DNA of 40,919 bases from a virus. The notes beneath the pieces were generated by a model. That model was given only the letters and a program-made list of their open reading frames with translations, was not told where the DNA came from and did no database searches. The position numbers and the translations under genes are program-made. This document shows positions 16,451 through 22,685 of this stretch, piece by piece; the stretch's first letter is position 1, and each line of letters opens with the position of its first letter. Location: IMG/VR virus record IMGVR_UViG_3300006802_000197, positions 1 to 40,919 of that record, one strand, 5' to 3'.

Positions 16451-16483
16451 GCACACCTTGTAGTGAGTATGGCATGGGGCTAA
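16447..16483. repeat. 37-bp element, copy A (convergent junction)
   Basis: This is the first of three ungapped 37-bp copies (others at 35294-35330 and 40035-40071). It has TTAAG at positions 1-5, TGTAGTGAGTAT at 13-24, a GGG around 30 and CTAA at 34-37. It overlaps the tail-fibre stop and the stop of the convergent leftward gene. Confidence 0.6.
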
Positions 16484-16491
16484 CCCGTGCC
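16471..16491. terminator. Hairpin between convergent arms
   Basis: GGCATGGG (16471-16478) pairs with CCCGTGCC (16484-16491), including one T-G pair, with a 5-base loop. It lies between the tail-fibre stop (16450) and the leftward gene stop (16480-16482, in the loop). There is no T-run on either strand, so it may stop transcription only weakly or block RNA decay. Confidence 0.4.
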
Positions 16492-17670
16492 GTGCATTTC
16501 GCGGGCACGAGGGATATAGTTCTCCGTGCCCGCAACTCTTTCAAAAATCCCTGACTTTTCCATCAACGACAAAATGCGTTCGGCTTTTTCTGCCGGAGTG
16601 CGCTGGGATAGAAAACGCAAGATTGTTGCGGAGCCTAGCGGCAAGCGATGTTTCATGTAAAGCGCGAATGCGTATTGGAAAGTCTCCTCGATCACTTGGT
16701 CGTCGGAGCGCATAATCATATCGCGGAAAATTTGCGGCATGAGCGCTTCAATCTCAAGCAGCCATTCTTTCGCCCGTTCCACATCTTGCAATCGAATAGC
16801 AAGTTCCGCTCCGCGTGACATCGCAGAAACCATCGCAAGTTTCACGGCGAAAATCTTTCCGCGACGAGGTAAGTAATTCGCTAACTTCGGATGGTCTGGG
16901 ATCGGCGGGCAATCCTTTTCAATCCAATCCTCAATCGCCCTTGCCGCTGGAACGTCCCATTTAATCTCACCATAATAATCCGCGCAGTCATCGAGCTTCG
17001 CCACGAGCTTCTTTTGGAGCGCGGTCGTATCTTTGTATTCACCGAAAAGCGAAACACGCGGGGCGTGGCTGCTGTAAACCATCAAAAGGCGCGAAGTCCA
17101 TCCCATCGTCCACGCAGTCTCAGGGAGCATCGAGGCAAGAAATCCCGGCTGCGATCCCAACAGCAACGTCGTCATCGGGTTTGGAATTTCAATCGGGTCT
17201 TTGAGCGAATGCCGCCGTTCTTCTCTATACGAGTCTTTATGGTCGAAGAGTTCATTGATAATCGACAAAAATCCCAGATCATGCGCGTTGATGAAAACGC
17301 CGAGTTCTGCTGCGAACACAAAGAGGTGATGGTATGTGAAAGAGCCGGAATTGTTCGGCCTTAAAACTGTGCGGAAGGCGCGGTTAAGTGCGTCGATGTA
17401 TGACGCAGCCGTGACGCTGTTGGGCGCAACGTGATACTTTTTGGTGGCCTTGAGCAAGCCCTCCGCAGGGTTAATCGCTTGCGACTTGCCGACGCCCGGA
17501 GGCGCGACCAACATGACATATAGGTTTGCATATTGCGGTCCCGCTTTTGTCATCGTCCAGACTCGCTTTTCAAGCGCGCCGGATAGCGTTGTGATGGCAG
17601 CCCATTTACGGAAAATAGCAGGTGACGGGCGTTCTTCCGTGAACGCCACGAATGAGTCAACAAAGTCCAC
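16480..17670 (-). CDS. DUF3987-like ATPase / helicase-like replication protein, 396 aa
   Basis: It is predicted to be a P-loop NTPase acting in DNA replication. The Walker A motif APPGVGKSQ lies at about residues 56-64 and follows the FRKWAAITTLSGALEKRVW segment typical of DUF3987 and phage primase-helicase-type ATPases. A Walker-B-like strand LFVFAAELGVFI and an arginine in GWTSRLLMVYS follow. The C-terminus (RTPAEKAERILSLMEKSGIF) looks like a winged helix. The start is GTG at 17670 behind AAGGGG. It is the last gene of the leftward arm, 36 bp after the polymerase. The exact role (helicase or loader) is not settled. Confidence 0.7.
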   Translation of the reverse strand: MDFVDSFVAFTEERPSPAIFRKWAAITTLSGALEKRVWTMTKAGPQYANLYVMLVAPPGVGKSQAINPAEGLLKATKKYHVAPNSVTAASYIDALNRAFRTVLRPNNSGSFTYHHLFVFAAELGVFINAHDLGFLSIINELFDHKDSYREERRHSLKDPIEIPNPMTTLLLGSQPGFLASMLPETAWTMGWTSRLLMVYSSHAPRVSLFGEYKDTTALQKKLVAKLDDCADYYGEIKWDVPAARAIEDWIEKDCPPIPDHPKLANYLPRRGKIFAVKLAMVSAMSRGAELAIRLQDVERAKEWLLEIEALMPQIFRDMIMRSDDQVIEETFQYAFALYMKHRLPLGSATILRFLSQRTPAEKAERILSLMEKSGIFERVAGTENYIPRAREMHGTG

Positions 17671-17705: not shown

Positions 17706-19187
17706 TTATAGTTTTTGCGAAAGGAGAGGAGTGCGTTTGCGCTCGTCCTTTTTGTTTTTCCATTTCGCCAGACCGTCAGGGTTAGCGGCGGGGTCGAAGT
17801 TTCCCCAATTCCAGCCAACCTTGGCTTCTCCCGGCACCACGAGTTCATGGCCGTTGCACTCAAACGCGAGGTGAAAATGTGAAAGGGCTTCGTCAATAAC
17901 AGCAACTTCGTCGAGGTGTTCGGGATATTGAAAGTAAAGGGCGTCGTGAACTTGCGCGATCAACTGAACCTGCGGCATGTATTTCCAAACTCTCCACAAC
18001 ACTAAATTCAATCTATCCGCCGTCGCGCTCTGCGGTGAAAACGCAATCGCTTCCCGTAGCGTCGTATCATCGTTCGCTCTTCCGAAGAACGTCCGCTCGC
18101 GTCCGAAAGGCGTGATGACTCTGTTTGCCGTTTGAAGCTGTTGTGCGACCCATCTATGCCATTTTGGTATTCCAGCAAATCTTTCGAAATATCTTCGCTG
18201 AAAAGACTCTGCGACTTCGACTGGGAGCTTGGCATGACGGGCCATGGTTGGAGGTAATCCGCGATAATTGCTTCCGTGGCCGAGTTTTTTCGCCATGTCT
18301 CTGTAGGTAAGGTGACGGTAAAAGGGCGTGTCTGCGATTGCACGATCGCGCTTTGGATCGTCTGTCCATTCCAATTCGGGCCAAGCAGTCCTTGCGACAA
18401 GAGTGTGAAGGTCGCCACTATAGCAGGCATCCAGATAAGACCAGTCACCACAAATGGTGCCCGAAAGCCATCCAACTTCTCTAGACTCTGCTTGTTCGAG
18501 GTCGATGCCGCAAATTTTGTAGCCAGGGTCAGCCACAAACATTTTGCGTAAACTTGACGTGATGTTTTGTAAGTTTGTTCCGGTGCCGAAGGCATTAGTG
18601 CTGGAAGAAAAGCGTCCGGTTTCTGTTCCTGCGACATTGTAAGATGTCCTCATGCGTCCGTCAGAATCGACTTCGGTGTTTAAAACTGAAAGTTGTTTGA
18701 CAGCATCTCGAATAGCCAAGATGGTCGAAACAAATGGTCTGGCGTGAAAATAGTTGTCGAGTTTTTCAAGGGCCTCGCGGTCCATCGAAAGTTTTCGCTC
18801 TCCCTTTTTTGAAGTCCAGATTTCTGGAATACGCATCACTCCAAAGAAAAACTCTTGAAGCATTTTAGGAGAGTTTGCTTTAAGGGGTTTGTCCCAAACA
18901 GCGTAGCTAAGACGATTAAGCAGAGTAGTAAGCCGGTCGATCTCCGCATTAAGCGTCTCAATACCTTTCTGGCGCTCATAAGTATCAATGCGAAACCCCC
19001 TCTGCATCATGTCCAGAACCGGAGCCTGGAGCGCACGGGCGAAATCGTAGATTTTTGGCGCAGGGCCTATAGCGCGGATGGAGTCTAAAACTTCATGTGT
19101 GATGCAGCAATCAAGGCCGTTATAGATTTGCTCGTTCTCCGCGAGCACAATGCCTTCTTGAAGAGTGCTGGTGTCAATGATCGGCAT
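17706..19187 (-). CDS. DNA polymerase, family A, polymerase subunit with exo motif III (split gene), 493 aa
   Basis: This is the replicative polymerase. Residues 22-26 are YNGLD, the YxxxD motif III of a DEDDy 3'-5' exonuclease whose motifs I and II are on the gene at 19522-20577. TETGRFSS lies at 188-195, motif A DLEQAESR at 229-236, motif B from R296 to 310 (RDMAKKLGHGSNYRG), motif C VHDA at 413-416. Motif C has Ala where Pol I has Glu, and motif B has His at the usual Phe/Tyr position. I start at ATG 19187, which overlaps the preceding stop (TAATG). The protein is too short to hold a full exonuclease domain, so it probably works with the upstream subunit. Confidence 0.88.
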   Translation of the reverse strand: MPIIDTSTLQEGIVLAENEQIYNGLDCCITHEVLDSIRAIGPAPKIYDFARALQAPVLDMMQRGFRIDTYERQKGIETLNAEIDRLTTLLNRLSYAVWDKPLKANSPKMLQEFFFGVMRIPEIWTSKKGERKLSMDREALEKLDNYFHARPFVSTILAIRDAVKQLSVLNTEVDSDGRMRTSYNVAGTETGRFSSSTNAFGTGTNLQNITSSLRKMFVADPGYKICGIDLEQAESREVGWLSGTICGDWSYLDACYSGDLHTLVARTAWPELEWTDDPKRDRAIADTPFYRHLTYRDMAKKLGHGSNYRGLPPTMARHAKLPVEVAESFQRRYFERFAGIPKWHRWVAQQLQTANRVITPFGRERTFFGRANDDTTLREAIAFSPQSATADRLNLVLWRVWKYMPQVQLIAQVHDALYFQYPEHLDEVAVIDEALSHFHLAFECNGHELVVPGEAKVGWNWGNFDPAANPDGLAKWKNKKDERKRTPLLSQKL

Positions 19188-19300
19188 TAAATCACCATTC
19201 CGCAAGCGACAAACAGCACCCAAACGGCGAGGGCTTTTTCGGAACCAGTCACGATGTAATATGTGAAAGGCACAAACGAGAGGATGAGGGGTGAAAGCAT
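19187..19300 (-). CDS. 37-aa two-segment membrane peptide
   Basis: This tiny gene is linked to both neighbours by TAATG overlaps at 19300 and 19187. The peptide has two hydrophobic stretches (LSPLILSFVPFTYYIV and ALAVWVLFVACGMVI) joined by TGSEK. No family is recognised. The tight coupling on both sides argues that it is translated. It lies inside the split polymerase locus together with the next gene. Confidence 0.6.
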   Translation of the reverse strand: MLSPLILSFVPFTYYIVTGSEKALAVWVLFVACGMVI

Positions 19301-19521
19301 TAGAGCATTCCTTTTGTTTGCAGATGGTTGAACATTCTGCGCCAAGCGTAGCTCCTTACAATACTGACAATGGTAAAGATCGCAGTGAGAGACAGGTTTT
19401 CTTGGAAAGAAGGGTGTAGGTTGAACCATGGGAAAACCAGCCATTGCGTTAGAAGGGAAGTGACAAACCCAGAGGCTGTGTTTAACAGGGCCTCGAAAAA
19501 GGAATGTTTGCGTGATTGCAT
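19300..19521 (-). CDS. DUF7220-like small membrane protein, 73 aa
   Basis: The pattern SRKHSFFEALLNTASGFV, then QWLVFPWF, then LSLTAIFTIVSIVRSY and RRMFN is a widespread small phage protein type that I place with DUF7220. It has two predicted membrane segments. Its function is unknown. The ATG directly follows the stop of the UDG-exonuclease gene. With the 37-aa gene it separates the two halves of the polymerase/exonuclease. Confidence 0.7.
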   Translation of the reverse strand: MQSRKHSFFEALLNTASGFVTSLLTQWLVFPWFNLHPSFQENLSLTAIFTIVSIVRSYAWRRMFNHLQTKGML

Positions 19522-20577
19522 TCAGTCATCCTTCTTCATCTCCGTGATCTTTTTCCCGCGCATGGTTTTCCACGCAGGCTCGGAAGTATAGATGCTGCCT
19601 AAAAAGCCCAGCCCCTTTTGCATTTCTGGATAAAGGGCATGGTGATAGAGCATGGTATCTTGAAGGCACGAACGAGGACGATAACCTTCTTTCATTAGAT
19701 ATTGCAAGTCATAAAGCCCGTTCTGGAATATTTTCACGATGTTGGGGTTTTCCAGAATCGAACGCACAACATTTCGTGCGTCACGCTCTATGCGAGGGGA
19801 TGGCCAATAATTTCCACCTTTCGCTTTGTCCCAGAACGGAACGACCATTGCGTTTTCCGCGTCCGCGCTGAACCCCACCATCTCGATCATGCCGTATTTC
19901 GTTTCGATGTCACAAGCGGTTTCGGCGCGTATATGCTTGGCGATCCAGTCATGGCATTCCGCAATCGTAGGGTTCACCAGAATGTAGCGGCGCGGTCGTT
20001 TGATCTCTGGGTATGCGCTTTCACGTTTCGCTTTAATCAAATCCGCGAGAGCGATTGGACGCCACGCCCAATTACGTAAGACTGCCGAAGGGTGGTAGGT
20101 CGGTAGGACTTTGCCGCCAGCAAGAGTTCCTGTCGCCACTGTCCCGCGTAAACTTCCAATGCCGTTAGTGCCAAGCAAAGCCCAGCAAGCTGTAGCACCC
20201 AGAGCGATAGTGAGATTAGGGCGCACGATTTCCAATTCATTTCGCAAACGCTCCAATTCTGACAGGTATTGAGGGGCCAGGTATTGCCCGACCTTGCCAA
20301 GATGCGGATGGGGATAATCCTCTCCGCATTCTGCTTTCTTGACGCACAAGGCTTGCAGATCATTGTTTGGTGGGCGCAGCGCCAGCACGTTTGTCAAAAA
20401 GCAATCACGACGAGACAACCCAGCTTCTTGCAACATGCGGGTAAGTTCTTGCCCGCTGTAACCTTGAAACGGCTTCCCGATGAGTGCTTCCTGCTCGCCC
20501 CACGCTTCTCCCACGATTGCGATTTTGGCGTCTCGTGGTCCGCTTGCGTGGGCGAATGCTGGCGCTGCGTTGTGCAT
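19522..20577 (-). CDS. Uracil-DNA-glycosylase-like domain fused to the N-terminal part of a 3'-5' exonuclease, 351 aa
   Basis: Residues 1-175 form a family-4/5-like UDG fold: GEAWGEQEALIGKPFQG at 23-39, TNVLALRPPNND at 62-73, IALGATACWALLG at 124-136 and HPSAVLRN at 162-169. Only C78 and C84 are seen near the usual Fe-S cysteines, so an intact cluster is doubtful. Residues 200-351 carry DEDD motif I (CDIETK, D223 and E225), motif II (NGLYD, D290) and the conserved HHALYPEMQKGLGFLGSIY segment. The protein ends before motif III, which is found on the polymerase gene at 19187. UDG-like domains on phage family-A polymerases are known (for example in SPO1-type phages); here the fusion is split. 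Confidence 0.82.
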   Translation of the reverse strand: MHNAAPAFAHASGPRDAKIAIVGEAWGEQEALIGKPFQGYSGQELTRMLQEAGLSRRDCFLTNVLALRPPNNDLQALCVKKAECGEDYPHPHLGKVGQYLAPQYLSELERLRNELEIVRPNLTIALGATACWALLGTNGIGSLRGTVATGTLAGGKVLPTYHPSAVLRNWAWRPIALADLIKAKRESAYPEIKRPRRYILVNPTIAECHDWIAKHIRAETACDIETKYGMIEMVGFSADAENAMVVPFWDKAKGGNYWPSPRIERDARNVVRSILENPNIVKIFQNGLYDLQYLMKEGYRPRSCLQDTMLYHHALYPEMQKGLGFLGSIYTSEPAWKTMRGKKITEMKKDD

Positions 20578-20578
20578 A

Positions 20579-20818
20579 TTACTGCTTCTCTACAGTTAAA
20601 CCTTTGACCAACCACATGCAGCCTTCTTCAAAGCATTCGATCGCTTTTGAGAGGAGGCGGGTTTCTTCATCGCTAATTGTGTCAATGTTGTCTGGAATGA
20701 AGTCCCATGTGAAGTCGATCAACTCAGCGGCTTGGCGTTTCGCTTCTCTCACTTCAGCCTTTTCGGTTGGAAGGAAAGATTTACGAACGATCTTTTCGCC
20801 ATGAGTGCGCGTTAGCAT
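20579..20818 (-). CDS. Small helical protein resembling Acb2/Tad1 hairpin proteins, 79 aa
   Basis: It is possibly an anti-CBASS sponge that sequesters cyclic oligonucleotides. The C-terminal 50 residues fit two helices with the pattern A..A.ELI......P followed by ETRLLSKAIECFEEGCMWL and KGLT. This recalls the LEEA-MWA-like helix of Acb2 proteins. Acb2 proteins are of similar size. The match is from memory of the pattern and needs a profile search. It overlaps both neighbours (TAATG upstream at 20818). If not Acb2, it is an unknown two-helix phage protein. Confidence 0.5.
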   Translation of the reverse strand: MLTRTHGEKIVRKSFLPTEKAEVREAKRQAAELIDFTWDFIPDNIDTISDEETRLLSKAIECFEEGCMWLVKGLTVEKQ

Positions 20819-21234
20819 TAGCGGTTTTCCTCTGCCACAATCGCCAGCAACAACAAGCTGTAAACCACAAGGTCGTCGATGCGTTCAGAAACAGGCTGCG
20901 TTCTTGCACGAGCCTTGTTTTCACGAACGTCTCTGATGTATTGCGAGATCGTGTCGATGTGTTTGCCTGCGAGAAAGAACCACGCAGTTGACATCGGAAC
21001 GCCTTGCTGATCGGCCAGTCTCCGAAAGTTTGCGAGGATGTCGCCGGAGTCGCCGTATTCTGCATTTTTCATTGCGAACAAATGTTCGGCGCGGGCAATC
21101 GCGTCAGCGATGACACTGCTTTGCGGATTGGAAGATGGGGGCGCTGGGATCATAAATGGCTCCTGTTTGCGATCAGCGATGGTTTCGTAAAGGTCGTGGA
21201 TGTTTATGCGGTCAGCTAAACTTTCATCCGTCAT
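20818..21234 (-). CDS. DUF1599 / nucleotide-modification-associated-domain-1-like protein, 138 aa
   Basis: The pattern FAMKNAEYGDSGDILANF, then GKHIDTISQYIRD, then ERIDDLVVYSLLLLAI fits the all-alpha DUF1599 (Nmad1) group, related in fold to MazG-type nucleotide pyrophosphatases. Acidic residues of a metal site (E in KNAEYGD, DD in ERIDDL) are present. Members often sit near DNA-modification genes; here it overlaps the ParB-methyltransferase by 11 bp and precedes the UDG-exonuclease region. A role in nucleotide pool or base chemistry is inference. Confidence 0.65.
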   Translation of the reverse strand: MTDESLADRINIHDLYETIADRKQEPFMIPAPPSSNPQSSVIADAIARAEHLFAMKNAEYGDSGDILANFRRLADQQGVPMSTAWFFLAGKHIDTISQYIRDVRENKARARTQPVSERIDDLVVYSLLLLAIVAEENR

Positions 21235-22660
21235 TCGCTTGCTCCTTTTTTAACGCCGATGCTTTCCGCATCACACGCGACTGAGTGAGGGCTCGTCTCG
21301 CGTTTGTTACGTATTCATCGTCAATCTCAAGGCCGAGCACATACTCTGCCCCGAGGGCTTCTGCGGCCCGCAGCGATGACCCACCACCGCATGTCGGATC
21401 GAGAAATCTTGTGTTGCTATCCACAAACATCTGCAGAAAGTGCTTTAGCACTGGTTCAGGTTTGGTGTGGGGGTGATGCTCCTTGTTCGTTTGCGCTGCG
21501 ATTGCGTTGGCCACGGGGCGAACCAGCAAACGATCCTCACGACTTGCAATCAGCGCGGTTTCGTAAATGCGTCTAGGTTCGCGTTTCGGGTCCGGCACAA
21601 TTCCCACGTTGTCGCTTTTCAGCCAGACGAGCGGGAAGTTGTTGAACGCCAGCGTCGGCGCAAGTTCCGCAAACATCTGGAGCGTCCGGGCCTGAATTTT
21701 GATGTCGCCGGAAAGCCAGAAAACCAAATGCCCGGAGTGCGCCATCACGCGATCGAGATTTTCACACAGACATTTAATCAGGTCGGTATAAATGTCTGGG
21801 GAGTCGTTATACCCCGGAGTTGTAAGTTTCCCAGACCACGCTCCACCGAAAACATTCACGCCGTAAGGAAAGTCGCAGTGGATAAGGTTGAACGGTTCGC
21901 CGGTGTAAGTTGGAGCCCAGTCAAGAAAAGATTGATGGAGAATAGACTGGTCGGCGGGTGTTATGAGGGGTGCTTGGCGTGCGGATTGAAATGCGGTTGT
22001 GGATGCCCCCGTGCCGCCCTTTTCCGGGGCCGTGGATGCGTTCAAAAGGTCGTCTAGGGGGTTACCACCCGACGCACTTTCAATCGCCTCAGAAGCCGCC
22101 GCCGTGGCCGTATGCAATAGGTTGCTTATGGCGTCCGACGCGACCCGTTCATCCTCACGAGTTAGAAAATTGTAAGCCCGCGTCGCAGACTCCATGTGCC
22201 GCACGTTATCTCGATGGAGTTCCTTGGCGATCCGGCAGCACCTATTCACCCACGAAGGGCTGAACCCAAGATTTTCCGCCGTATTGTTATAGCCCCAGTC
22301 CGGGCCGCCAGCTTGCGACAAAATTTCATGCACGCTCGCCATCGCCAAACACTGGTCCTGCCAGCCCAAATCCTTCCGGCGAAGATTTTCTTCGAGTTCA
22401 ACCACCCGCTGCTCGGTTGGCGAAAGATCGTCCAGCAGGCGCGCGGGAATTGATTCAAGTTTTAACTGCCGCGACGCCGTGTAACGCCGTTCGCCTGCGA
22501 TTAGTTTGAAAGGCTGGCCATTCGGGCCTTGCTCGCTCGTGACGATAATCGGCACAAGAACTCCGCGTCTCGGAATGCTTTCGAGCAAATCGTCAATCAC
22601 GATCTCCTTGCGCTGACGGCTTGCACGGTCGATCCAAATAGCATTAAGCGAGATTTCCAT
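21224..22660 (-). CDS. ParB/Srx-like domain fused to a DNA methyltransferase, 478 aa
   Basis: It is predicted to methylate adenine-N6 or cytosine-N4 in DNA. Residues 1-100 are a ParB/sulfiredoxin-like domain (VPIIV at 36-40, AGERRYTAS at 55-63). A linker follows at about 195-235. Then a beta-class methyltransferase: motif IV DFPYG at 263-267 (usually DPPY), HPHTKPEPV (motif X-like) at 397-405, and motif I DPTCGGGSS at 421-429, with EIDDEY after. The ATG at 22660 is chosen for its AGGA site; an in-frame TTG lies 6 bp upstream. Such fusions are common in phages and may protect DNA from host restriction. Confidence 0.82.
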   Translation of the reverse strand: MEISLNAIWIDRASRQRKEIVIDDLLESIPRRGVLVPIIVTSEQGPNGQPFKLIAGERRYTASRQLKLESIPARLLDDLSPTEQRVVELEENLRRKDLGWQDQCLAMASVHEILSQAGGPDWGYNNTAENLGFSPSWVNRCCRIAKELHRDNVRHMESATRAYNFLTREDERVASDAISNLLHTATAAASEAIESASGGNPLDDLLNASTAPEKGGTGASTTAFQSARQAPLITPADQSILHQSFLDWAPTYTGEPFNLIHCDFPYGVNVFGGAWSGKLTTPGYNDSPDIYTDLIKCLCENLDRVMAHSGHLVFWLSGDIKIQARTLQMFAELAPTLAFNNFPLVWLKSDNVGIVPDPKREPRRIYETALIASREDRLLVRPVANAIAAQTNKEHHPHTKPEPVLKHFLQMFVDSNTRFLDPTCGGGSSLRAAEALGAEYVLGLEIDDEYVTNARRALTQSRVMRKASALKKEQANDG

Positions 22661-22685
22661 TTTCAATTCCTGTCAGTTGCAAGGT

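Follow-up and report, generated by a model that had tools for sequence, protein, structure and literature searches.

Divided exonuclease motifs in a phage family-A DNA polymerase encoded by two genes

How can a replicative DNA polymerase proofread when the residues of its exonuclease site are encoded by two separate genes? This question is raised by the polymerase locus of a virus of bacteria, IMG/VR record IMGVR_UViG_3300006802_000197, of which positions 1 to 40,919 form the 40,919-nucleotide (nt) window analysed here. The polymerase cluster lies on the minus strand, as do all features of the window given below. It includes an upstream gene for a protein of 351 amino acids (19522..20577) and a downstream gene for a protein of 493 amino acids (17706..19187), separated by two small genes. 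Very probably, the two larger genes encode a replicative family-A polymerase of two non-covalently associated subunits, with a composite proofreading site.

The division of the enzyme is apparent from profile searches. In Pfam, the upstream protein matches UDG (2.2e-24) and DNA_pol_A_exo1 (3.7e-5), while the downstream protein matches DNA_pol_A (PF00476, 1.2e-34) and also shows a profile match to Taq/Klenow polymerase (1e-54). Positions 476-798 of PHROG family 17 (phrog_17) correspond to the upstream protein and positions 809-1232 to the downstream protein. Because these matches are complementary and adjoining, the two proteins are two parts of one polymerase family. Residue equivalence was established by alignment to E. 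coli PolA (Klenow). The upstream subunit comprises a UDG-like domain and the N-terminal part of a DEDDy 3'-5' exonuclease, with motif I (DxE) at D223-I-E225 (19903..19911; Klenow D355 and E357) and motif II (D) at D290 (19708..19710; D424). Motif III (YxxxD) is found in the downstream subunit as YNGLD, with Y22 and D26 (19110..19124; Y497 and D501). It is followed by a complete family-A polymerase, including the motif A catalytic aspartate D229 (18501..18503; D705), the motif B lysine K300 (18288..18290; K758), and H414-D415 of motif C (17943..17948; H881-D882). All DEDDy motifs are therefore present but shared out over two proteins. No single polypeptide holds all the catalytic residues, and motif III is downstream in each of the 143 split relatives described below. 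The initial annotation of this DNA had distributed the same residues in the same way, ahead of complete polymerase motifs. The PolA alignment confirms this assignment, and both genes, the named residues and the intervening open reading frames (ORFs) were located where it had placed them.

Relatives were gathered by tblastn searches of annotated phages and by scans of IMG/VR, giving hundreds of loci, most of them metagenomic contigs. After removal of duplicates, both halves were present in 248 loci, of which 215 are split (some at other points) and 33 are fused. The searches of annotated phages identified one cultured phage with the matching split, Caulobacter phage Kuura (OQ067476), at 43% identity in both halves. 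In Kuura, two hypothetical genes lie between the halves and the upstream half is annotated as a "hypothetical protein". Fused UDG-exonuclease-polymerase homologues found by tblastn include ctMlz233, Microcystis phage Mel-JY34, Desulfofustis phage LS06-2018-MD01, vir526, and others. Separately, a scan of cellular genomes with the upstream protein returned one locus, in an Acidobacteria metagenome-assembled genome (L268; 47% identity).

A concatenated tree was built from 166 non-redundant sequences, 143 split and 23 fused, with FastTree support only. Nearly all split members form one clade, sister to a fused clade, with a basal support of 0.89. L364 and L366, counted among the 143, fall outside the main split clade, and no re-fused member was found within it on this tree. 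The fused state is ancestral, being that of E. coli Pol I and of nearly all outgroup members, and the split is old and, for the main clade, single. The fused sister clade and the position of the break between motifs II and III bear out the earlier proposal that one ancestral UDG-exonuclease-polymerase gene was split in a loop.

The arrangement is strictly conserved. In all 143 split relatives the D, E and D residues are upstream and the Y and D residues downstream, the loop of the break is common to all, and none repeats motif III in the upstream gene. The five exonuclease residues are invariant in all 166 sequences, and the equivalents of polymerase D705, K758, H881 and D882 are also conserved, except in one gapped row at H881/D882. 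Among close relatives, the ratio of non-synonymous to synonymous substitution (dN/dS) is ~0.06-0.08 in both halves, indicating strong purifying selection. For the window compared with relative L007, for example, the upstream gene has dN 0.099 and dS 1.23, and the downstream gene dN 0.072 and dS 1.28. An identical arrangement in 143 non-redundant relatives, together with low dN/dS, places the split far beyond chance.

These patterns also bear on whether the locus proofreads at all. The polymerase subunit might replicate alone, the upstream protein being an independent UDG or nuclease relic; the downstream protein does contain a complete polymerase domain that is confidently modelled by itself. 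However, invariance of all five exonuclease ligands in 143 split lineages, despite their distribution over two proteins, would be difficult to account for if the composite site were inactive, and purifying selection is strong on both halves. Loss of proofreading is consequently considered very unlikely.

Structure models are consistent with a two-subunit enzyme that proofreads. In relative L093, the two halves are in one frame, parted by a lone TGA (2710-2712), with a stretch of 33 codons before motif III. Judged from its reading frame, this locus is a candidate for a read-through or recent-loss intermediate. Purely for modelling, the TGA was read as tryptophan, and the resulting chain of 828 residues was modelled with AlphaFold2, using alignment rows from the split halves and the fused homologues. 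The joined model has a mean predicted local distance difference test score (pLDDT) of 91.6 and a predicted template modelling score of 0.87. Only residues 322-342, exactly the gene junction, fall below a pLDDT of 50. Residues 175-824 align to Klenow (1kfs) as one chain (Z 31.1, 553 residues aligned), and Foldseek also aligns the model to other Pol I structures. When the polymerase subunit of the window was modelled alone, its core was confident, whereas residues 1-4 and 16-47, motif III included, had pLDDT <50; in the joined L093 model the N-terminal motif III segment reaches ~84-96. The initial annotation had held that the halves must assemble to proofread, a view favoured by the invariant residues on both sides and by a joined model of low confidence only at the junction. 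Covariation between the upstream and downstream proteins favours the exonuclease over the UDG domain, accounting for 16 of the top 20 pairs against 8 expected, a weak signal in the expected direction.

Several points weigh against this picture. The comparison of the lone and joined models involves different sequences and alignment depths and constitutes support rather than proof. The covariation signal derives from sequence alone, with only ~79 effective sequences. Assembly was modelled only as an artificial read-through chain with a covalent linker, and most relatives are known from metagenomic contigs. Finally, the exonuclease residues could in principle be conserved for a role other than proofreading.

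In the mechanism proposed, the UDG-like domain would come from the upstream subunit, together with most of the 3'-5' exonuclease fold and the metal ligands D, E and D. Motif III (the tyrosine and the last aspartate) would be contributed by the N-terminal segment of the downstream subunit, which would also bring the whole polymerase domain. Non-covalently associated, the subunits would form a Klenow-like enzyme, and proofreading would be performed in trans, by the complex only. The break is placed in the loop between exonuclease motifs II and III, which is predicted to be flexible, so that the structural cost of the split would be low. Since its opening, the junction has been favoured by small cargo genes, which are gained and lost while the enzyme stays untouched.

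The way in which the separate genes are translated is suggested by the junctions themselves. The first small gene of the window encodes a DUF7220 protein of 73 amino acids (19300..19521; PF23858, 2.2e-29; phrog_4276), which is this subclade's cargo at the break. The second encodes a hydrophobic protein of 37 amino acids (19187..19300; dN/dS ~0.05-0.15), earlier called a membrane gene. Each gene had been described as coupled to the next by overlap. This is true of two junctions, where TAATG creates overlaps of 1 nt, but the junction between the 351-residue gene and DUF7220 is TGAATG, which merely abuts. The polymerase half starts at the ATG at 19187, within TAATG. A TTG at 19223 was considered as an alternative start and is superfluous, the ATG being conserved among relatives.

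The upstream gene of the window ends in the tail KKDD followed by a stop (AAG AAG GAT GAC TGA, 19522..19536), which doubles as a Shine-Dalgarno (SD) sequence for the ATG at 19521. The usual C-terminus of the upstream protein in relatives is K[KR][DE][DEA], with the codons AAG-AGG/AAG-GAN-GAN-stop forming an SD before the next ATG. An SD word of at least 4 nt is present at 123 of 141 junctions versus 21% of control positions, a comparison in which the control is rough and the junction figure is somewhat inflated by choosing the best of several starts. Arginine at the third-last position of the tail is encoded by AGG in 59% of cases versus 7% in the rest of the gene. The AGG bias and the SD words indicate that the sequence of the new C-terminus largely reflects its use as a ribosome-binding site for re-initiation. 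Downstream cistrons would thus be read via local re-initiation, the SD lying within the upstream C-terminal codons and stops and starts abutting or overlapping. The conserved tail was also considered as a protein docking element; the codon bias favours the ribosome-binding site, and a role of the peptide may coexist with it.

The distance between the halves varies widely. In 34 of the 143 split sequences, the halves abut or overlap by a few nt, and in the remaining 109, more than 150 nt, and up to 2 kb, separate the upstream stop from motif III. These figures bear on the removal of the intervening segment by an intron or other splicing, which would yield a single polymerase. Phage polymerase genes often contain group I introns, and splicing was suggested by the authors describing OM43 phages for their split polymerase (PMC10580990). 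Rfam, however, gave no match in the window or in 14 cargo-bearing loci, and in the 34 relatives with abutting or overlapping halves, which have a stop and a new start, there is nothing to splice. For the initial annotation, splicing would have counted against a split enzyme; no intron was found. In addition, selection on the tail codons acts to maintain a ribosome-binding site, the cargo genes are diverse, and the cargo of the window is under purifying selection. Splicing is accordingly regarded as extremely improbable.

An equally slight probability is assigned to fusion of the halves into one polypeptide by a split intein or programmed frameshifting. A split intein has been reported in a phage DNA polymerase B (PMC6892783), and relatives without a gap have their halves in adjacent frames. 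On the other side, neither protein contains an intein domain in Pfam, and the SD largely dictates the sequence of the C-terminal tail, which is short. Frameshift fusion is ruled out in the window, where two intervening genes lie in other frames.

Separate translation of a two-subunit polymerase invites the further idea that the separation is itself functional. With proofreading confined to the complex, the subunit ratio, set by re-initiation through the cargo genes, would tune fidelity by giving proofreading and mutator forms of the replicase, and the cargo would both ride on and influence this control. This is considered unlikely.

The split junction is a hot spot for cargo. With the polymerase-primase junction as reference, an insert of more than 150 nt was present at the split junction in 100 of 129 loci and at the reference junction in 9 of 129. 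Across 161 filled loci, 241 ORFs fall into ~118 sequence clusters, some of them possibly spurious short ORFs. Pfam matches among 45 cargo representatives comprise HNH_3 (7), DUF7768 (3), DUF1937, DUF3102, nucleoside deoxyribosyltransferase and zf-His_Me endonuclease loop (2 each), and LAGLIDADG_3, MazG and YfbR-like (1 each); the cargo otherwise includes many orphans. The break in the window contains DUF7220 and the 37-residue ORF, and no homing endonuclease of the HNH, GIY-YIG or LAGLIDADG type was detected there by Pfam. As a separate observation, many cargo genes resemble families of the nucleoside-2-deoxyribosyltransferase type (DUF7768, DUF1937, DUF4406, Nuc_deoxyrib_tr) or of nucleotide metabolism (MazG, YfbR); examples are L088 3123-3464, L267 6436-6867, L276 3982-4506 and L100 4305-4640.

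Gain and loss of cargo are nearly random with respect to the tree. The filled or empty state requires 27 parsimony changes, compared with a mean of 30 and a minimum of 25 for shuffled labels, and near-identical phages carry different cargo (L006/L007, L022/L026, L149/L161). In 32 loci DUF7220 lies inside the gap, and in five it lies 17-25 nt 5' of a fused polymerase gene; genes in relatives include L111 4767-4976 and L002 3778-3972. Its presence beside the polymerase in both split and fused loci hints at a functional tie to the replicase.

Such rapid turnover affects what can be said about the origin of the split. The initial annotation had attributed it to insertion of the DUF7220/37-residue cassette. 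This finds no support, given the 34 of 143 split sequences without a cassette, the others carrying wholly different genes, the cargo differences between near-identical phages, and the cassette-free splits in the fused clade. In that clade, L364/L365, L113 and L366 have a break at the equivalent loop; an HNH-type insert fills it in L366, whereas the others have none. Their shared junction wording (WKPxKxxWKxG, then HETE) points to one to three further origins. By parsimony, the main split clade had cargo at its root, a result made uninformative by the speed of turnover. The gene may have been opened by a cargo gene, possibly a homing endonuclease, or by stop and restart mutations.

One history, compatible with the two-subunit enzyme since it concerns only origin, is that a homing endonuclease was inserted, split the gene and was later lost or replaced. 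HNH genes occur within the gap in L006, L016, L022, L024, L088, L091 and L095, and a LAGLIDADG gene in L176. An HNH-type insert is also present at the equivalent loop in L366 and an HNH gene between UDG and exonuclease in L352, and precedents are Aeh1 nrdA and possibly gene 43 of Aeromonas phage 25 (PMC2988022). Against this, an endonuclease is present in only about one tenth of filled junctions (a rough estimate by cluster count), L364 and L113 are split without a cassette, and the root state has been erased by turnover. The chances of this history are put at slightly below even.

The UDG-exonuclease-polymerase family fragments repeatedly, and breaks at other points are found in several relatives. 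One lies between UDG and exonuclease, with an HNH gene, in L352 (688-3383) and also L356, and another after motif III in L117 (1727-4364). Breaks within the polymerase domain before motif A are seen in L120 (2956-6090), which is Vibrio phage VS-ABTNL-3, L360 (3542-6241), L368 (4989-8364) and L359 (4941-7577).

The N-terminal domain of the upstream protein belongs to the UDG superfamily (residues 13-171, 20065..20541; PF03167, 2.2e-24) and its profile matches include bacterial UDGs of known structure (1ui0 and 1vk2, for example). The N-terminal CxxC of iron-sulfur family-4 UDGs is absent from the first 60 residues of all 166 extracted sequences. In a motif survey, motif A is GEAWG in the window and in most split members versus GEAPG in many fused ones. 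Owing to the missing CxxC and the GEAWG motif, the domain is called only "UDG-like". Its glycosylase activity is doubtful from these motifs, and in this polymerase family the domain may survive as a relic that binds DNA without acting as a glycosylase.

Further features surround the polymerase genes. A DUF3987/phrog_14296 primase-type gene (16480..17670; Pfam, PHROG) lies directly 3' of the polymerase gene. Overlapping DUF7220 is a +1-frame ORF (19187-19444) that stays open in 9 of 9 close relatives versus 0 of 304 control windows and continues into the 37-residue protein, with the wording YCKELRLAQ conserved. Synonymous change in DUF7220 is somewhat lower in the part overlapped by this ORF (0.455, compared with 0.633 and 0.582). 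A longer form, overlapping DUF7220 in its N-terminal part, may exist, of which the 37-residue protein would be the C-terminal end. Just 5' of the upstream polymerase gene, a gene for 79 amino acids (20579-20818) matches the Pfam Acb2/Tad1 hairpin domain at 29.2 bits against a cut-off of 27. Its product is a possible cyclic-nucleotide sponge (anti-CBASS/anti-Thoeris). A protein of 480 amino acids (21224-22666) combines, judged by eye, a ParB-like N-terminal half with a DNA methyltransferase-like C-terminal half. In ctMlz233, vB_VspS_VS-ABTNL-3, Mel-JY34 and LS06-2018-MD01, genes of the methyltransferase or ParB type are also located 5' of the polymerase.

Split phage polymerases are already known. 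In the T4-like Aeromonas phages 44RR and 25, gene 43, of family B, is split as 43A/43B, and the phage 25 proteins gp43A and gp43B co-purify and are active (PMC2988022). As here, a replicative polymerase is made from two adjoining genes with an insert between them, in that case an IC-UTS or a seg endonuclease. That split concerns few phages, whereas the present one concerns family A, divides the exonuclease site, extends over a whole clade, and accepts exchangeable cargo; subunit association is here predicted. OM43 phages MEP401 and MEP402 have a family-A polymerase in two ORFs separated by a small ORF of unknown function (PMC10580990), an orphan insert comparable to that described here. Their break, however, is inside the polymerase domain (ORF13 being exonuclease plus N-terminal polymerase and ORF15 C-terminal polymerase), as in the distant relatives L120, L360, L368 and L359, and not inside the exonuclease domain. 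The UDG-DNA polymerase I of jumbo phage PaBG (PMC7412058) and the polymerases of Mel-JY34 and ctMlz233 share the combination of UDG, exonuclease and polymerase but are single polypeptides. ExnV1 (PMC9629493), related to phage G20c Pol I, is likewise a case of a phage Pol I exonuclease region with a gene of its own. It contains all exonuclease ligands in itself and was taken as a truncated gene, whereas here the site is divided. Kuura is split at the equivalent loop and differs in cargo; the main text on its genome, as found by search, does not mention the split (PMC9959647). In the open-access literature, no description was found of a family-A polymerase with a divided exonuclease active site, nor of a clade-wide polymerase split with a cargo hot spot.

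The "hypothetical" label of the upstream half, for example in Kuura, is accounted for by the split. The locus also provides a countable case of an intragenic site turned into a permanent landing place for passenger genes, and the several further break points among relatives make this family well suited to testing why phage replication genes fragment. As a natural split-protein system, it indicates that the exonuclease loop tolerates a break, and polymerase and proofreading functions could be separated and recombined at will. Two gene products would together form the proofreading site, an arrangement retained throughout a deep phage clade in which no re-fusion was seen. If the predicted assembly is true, this family would show, in nature and on a wide scale, a single enzyme active site built from two proteins.

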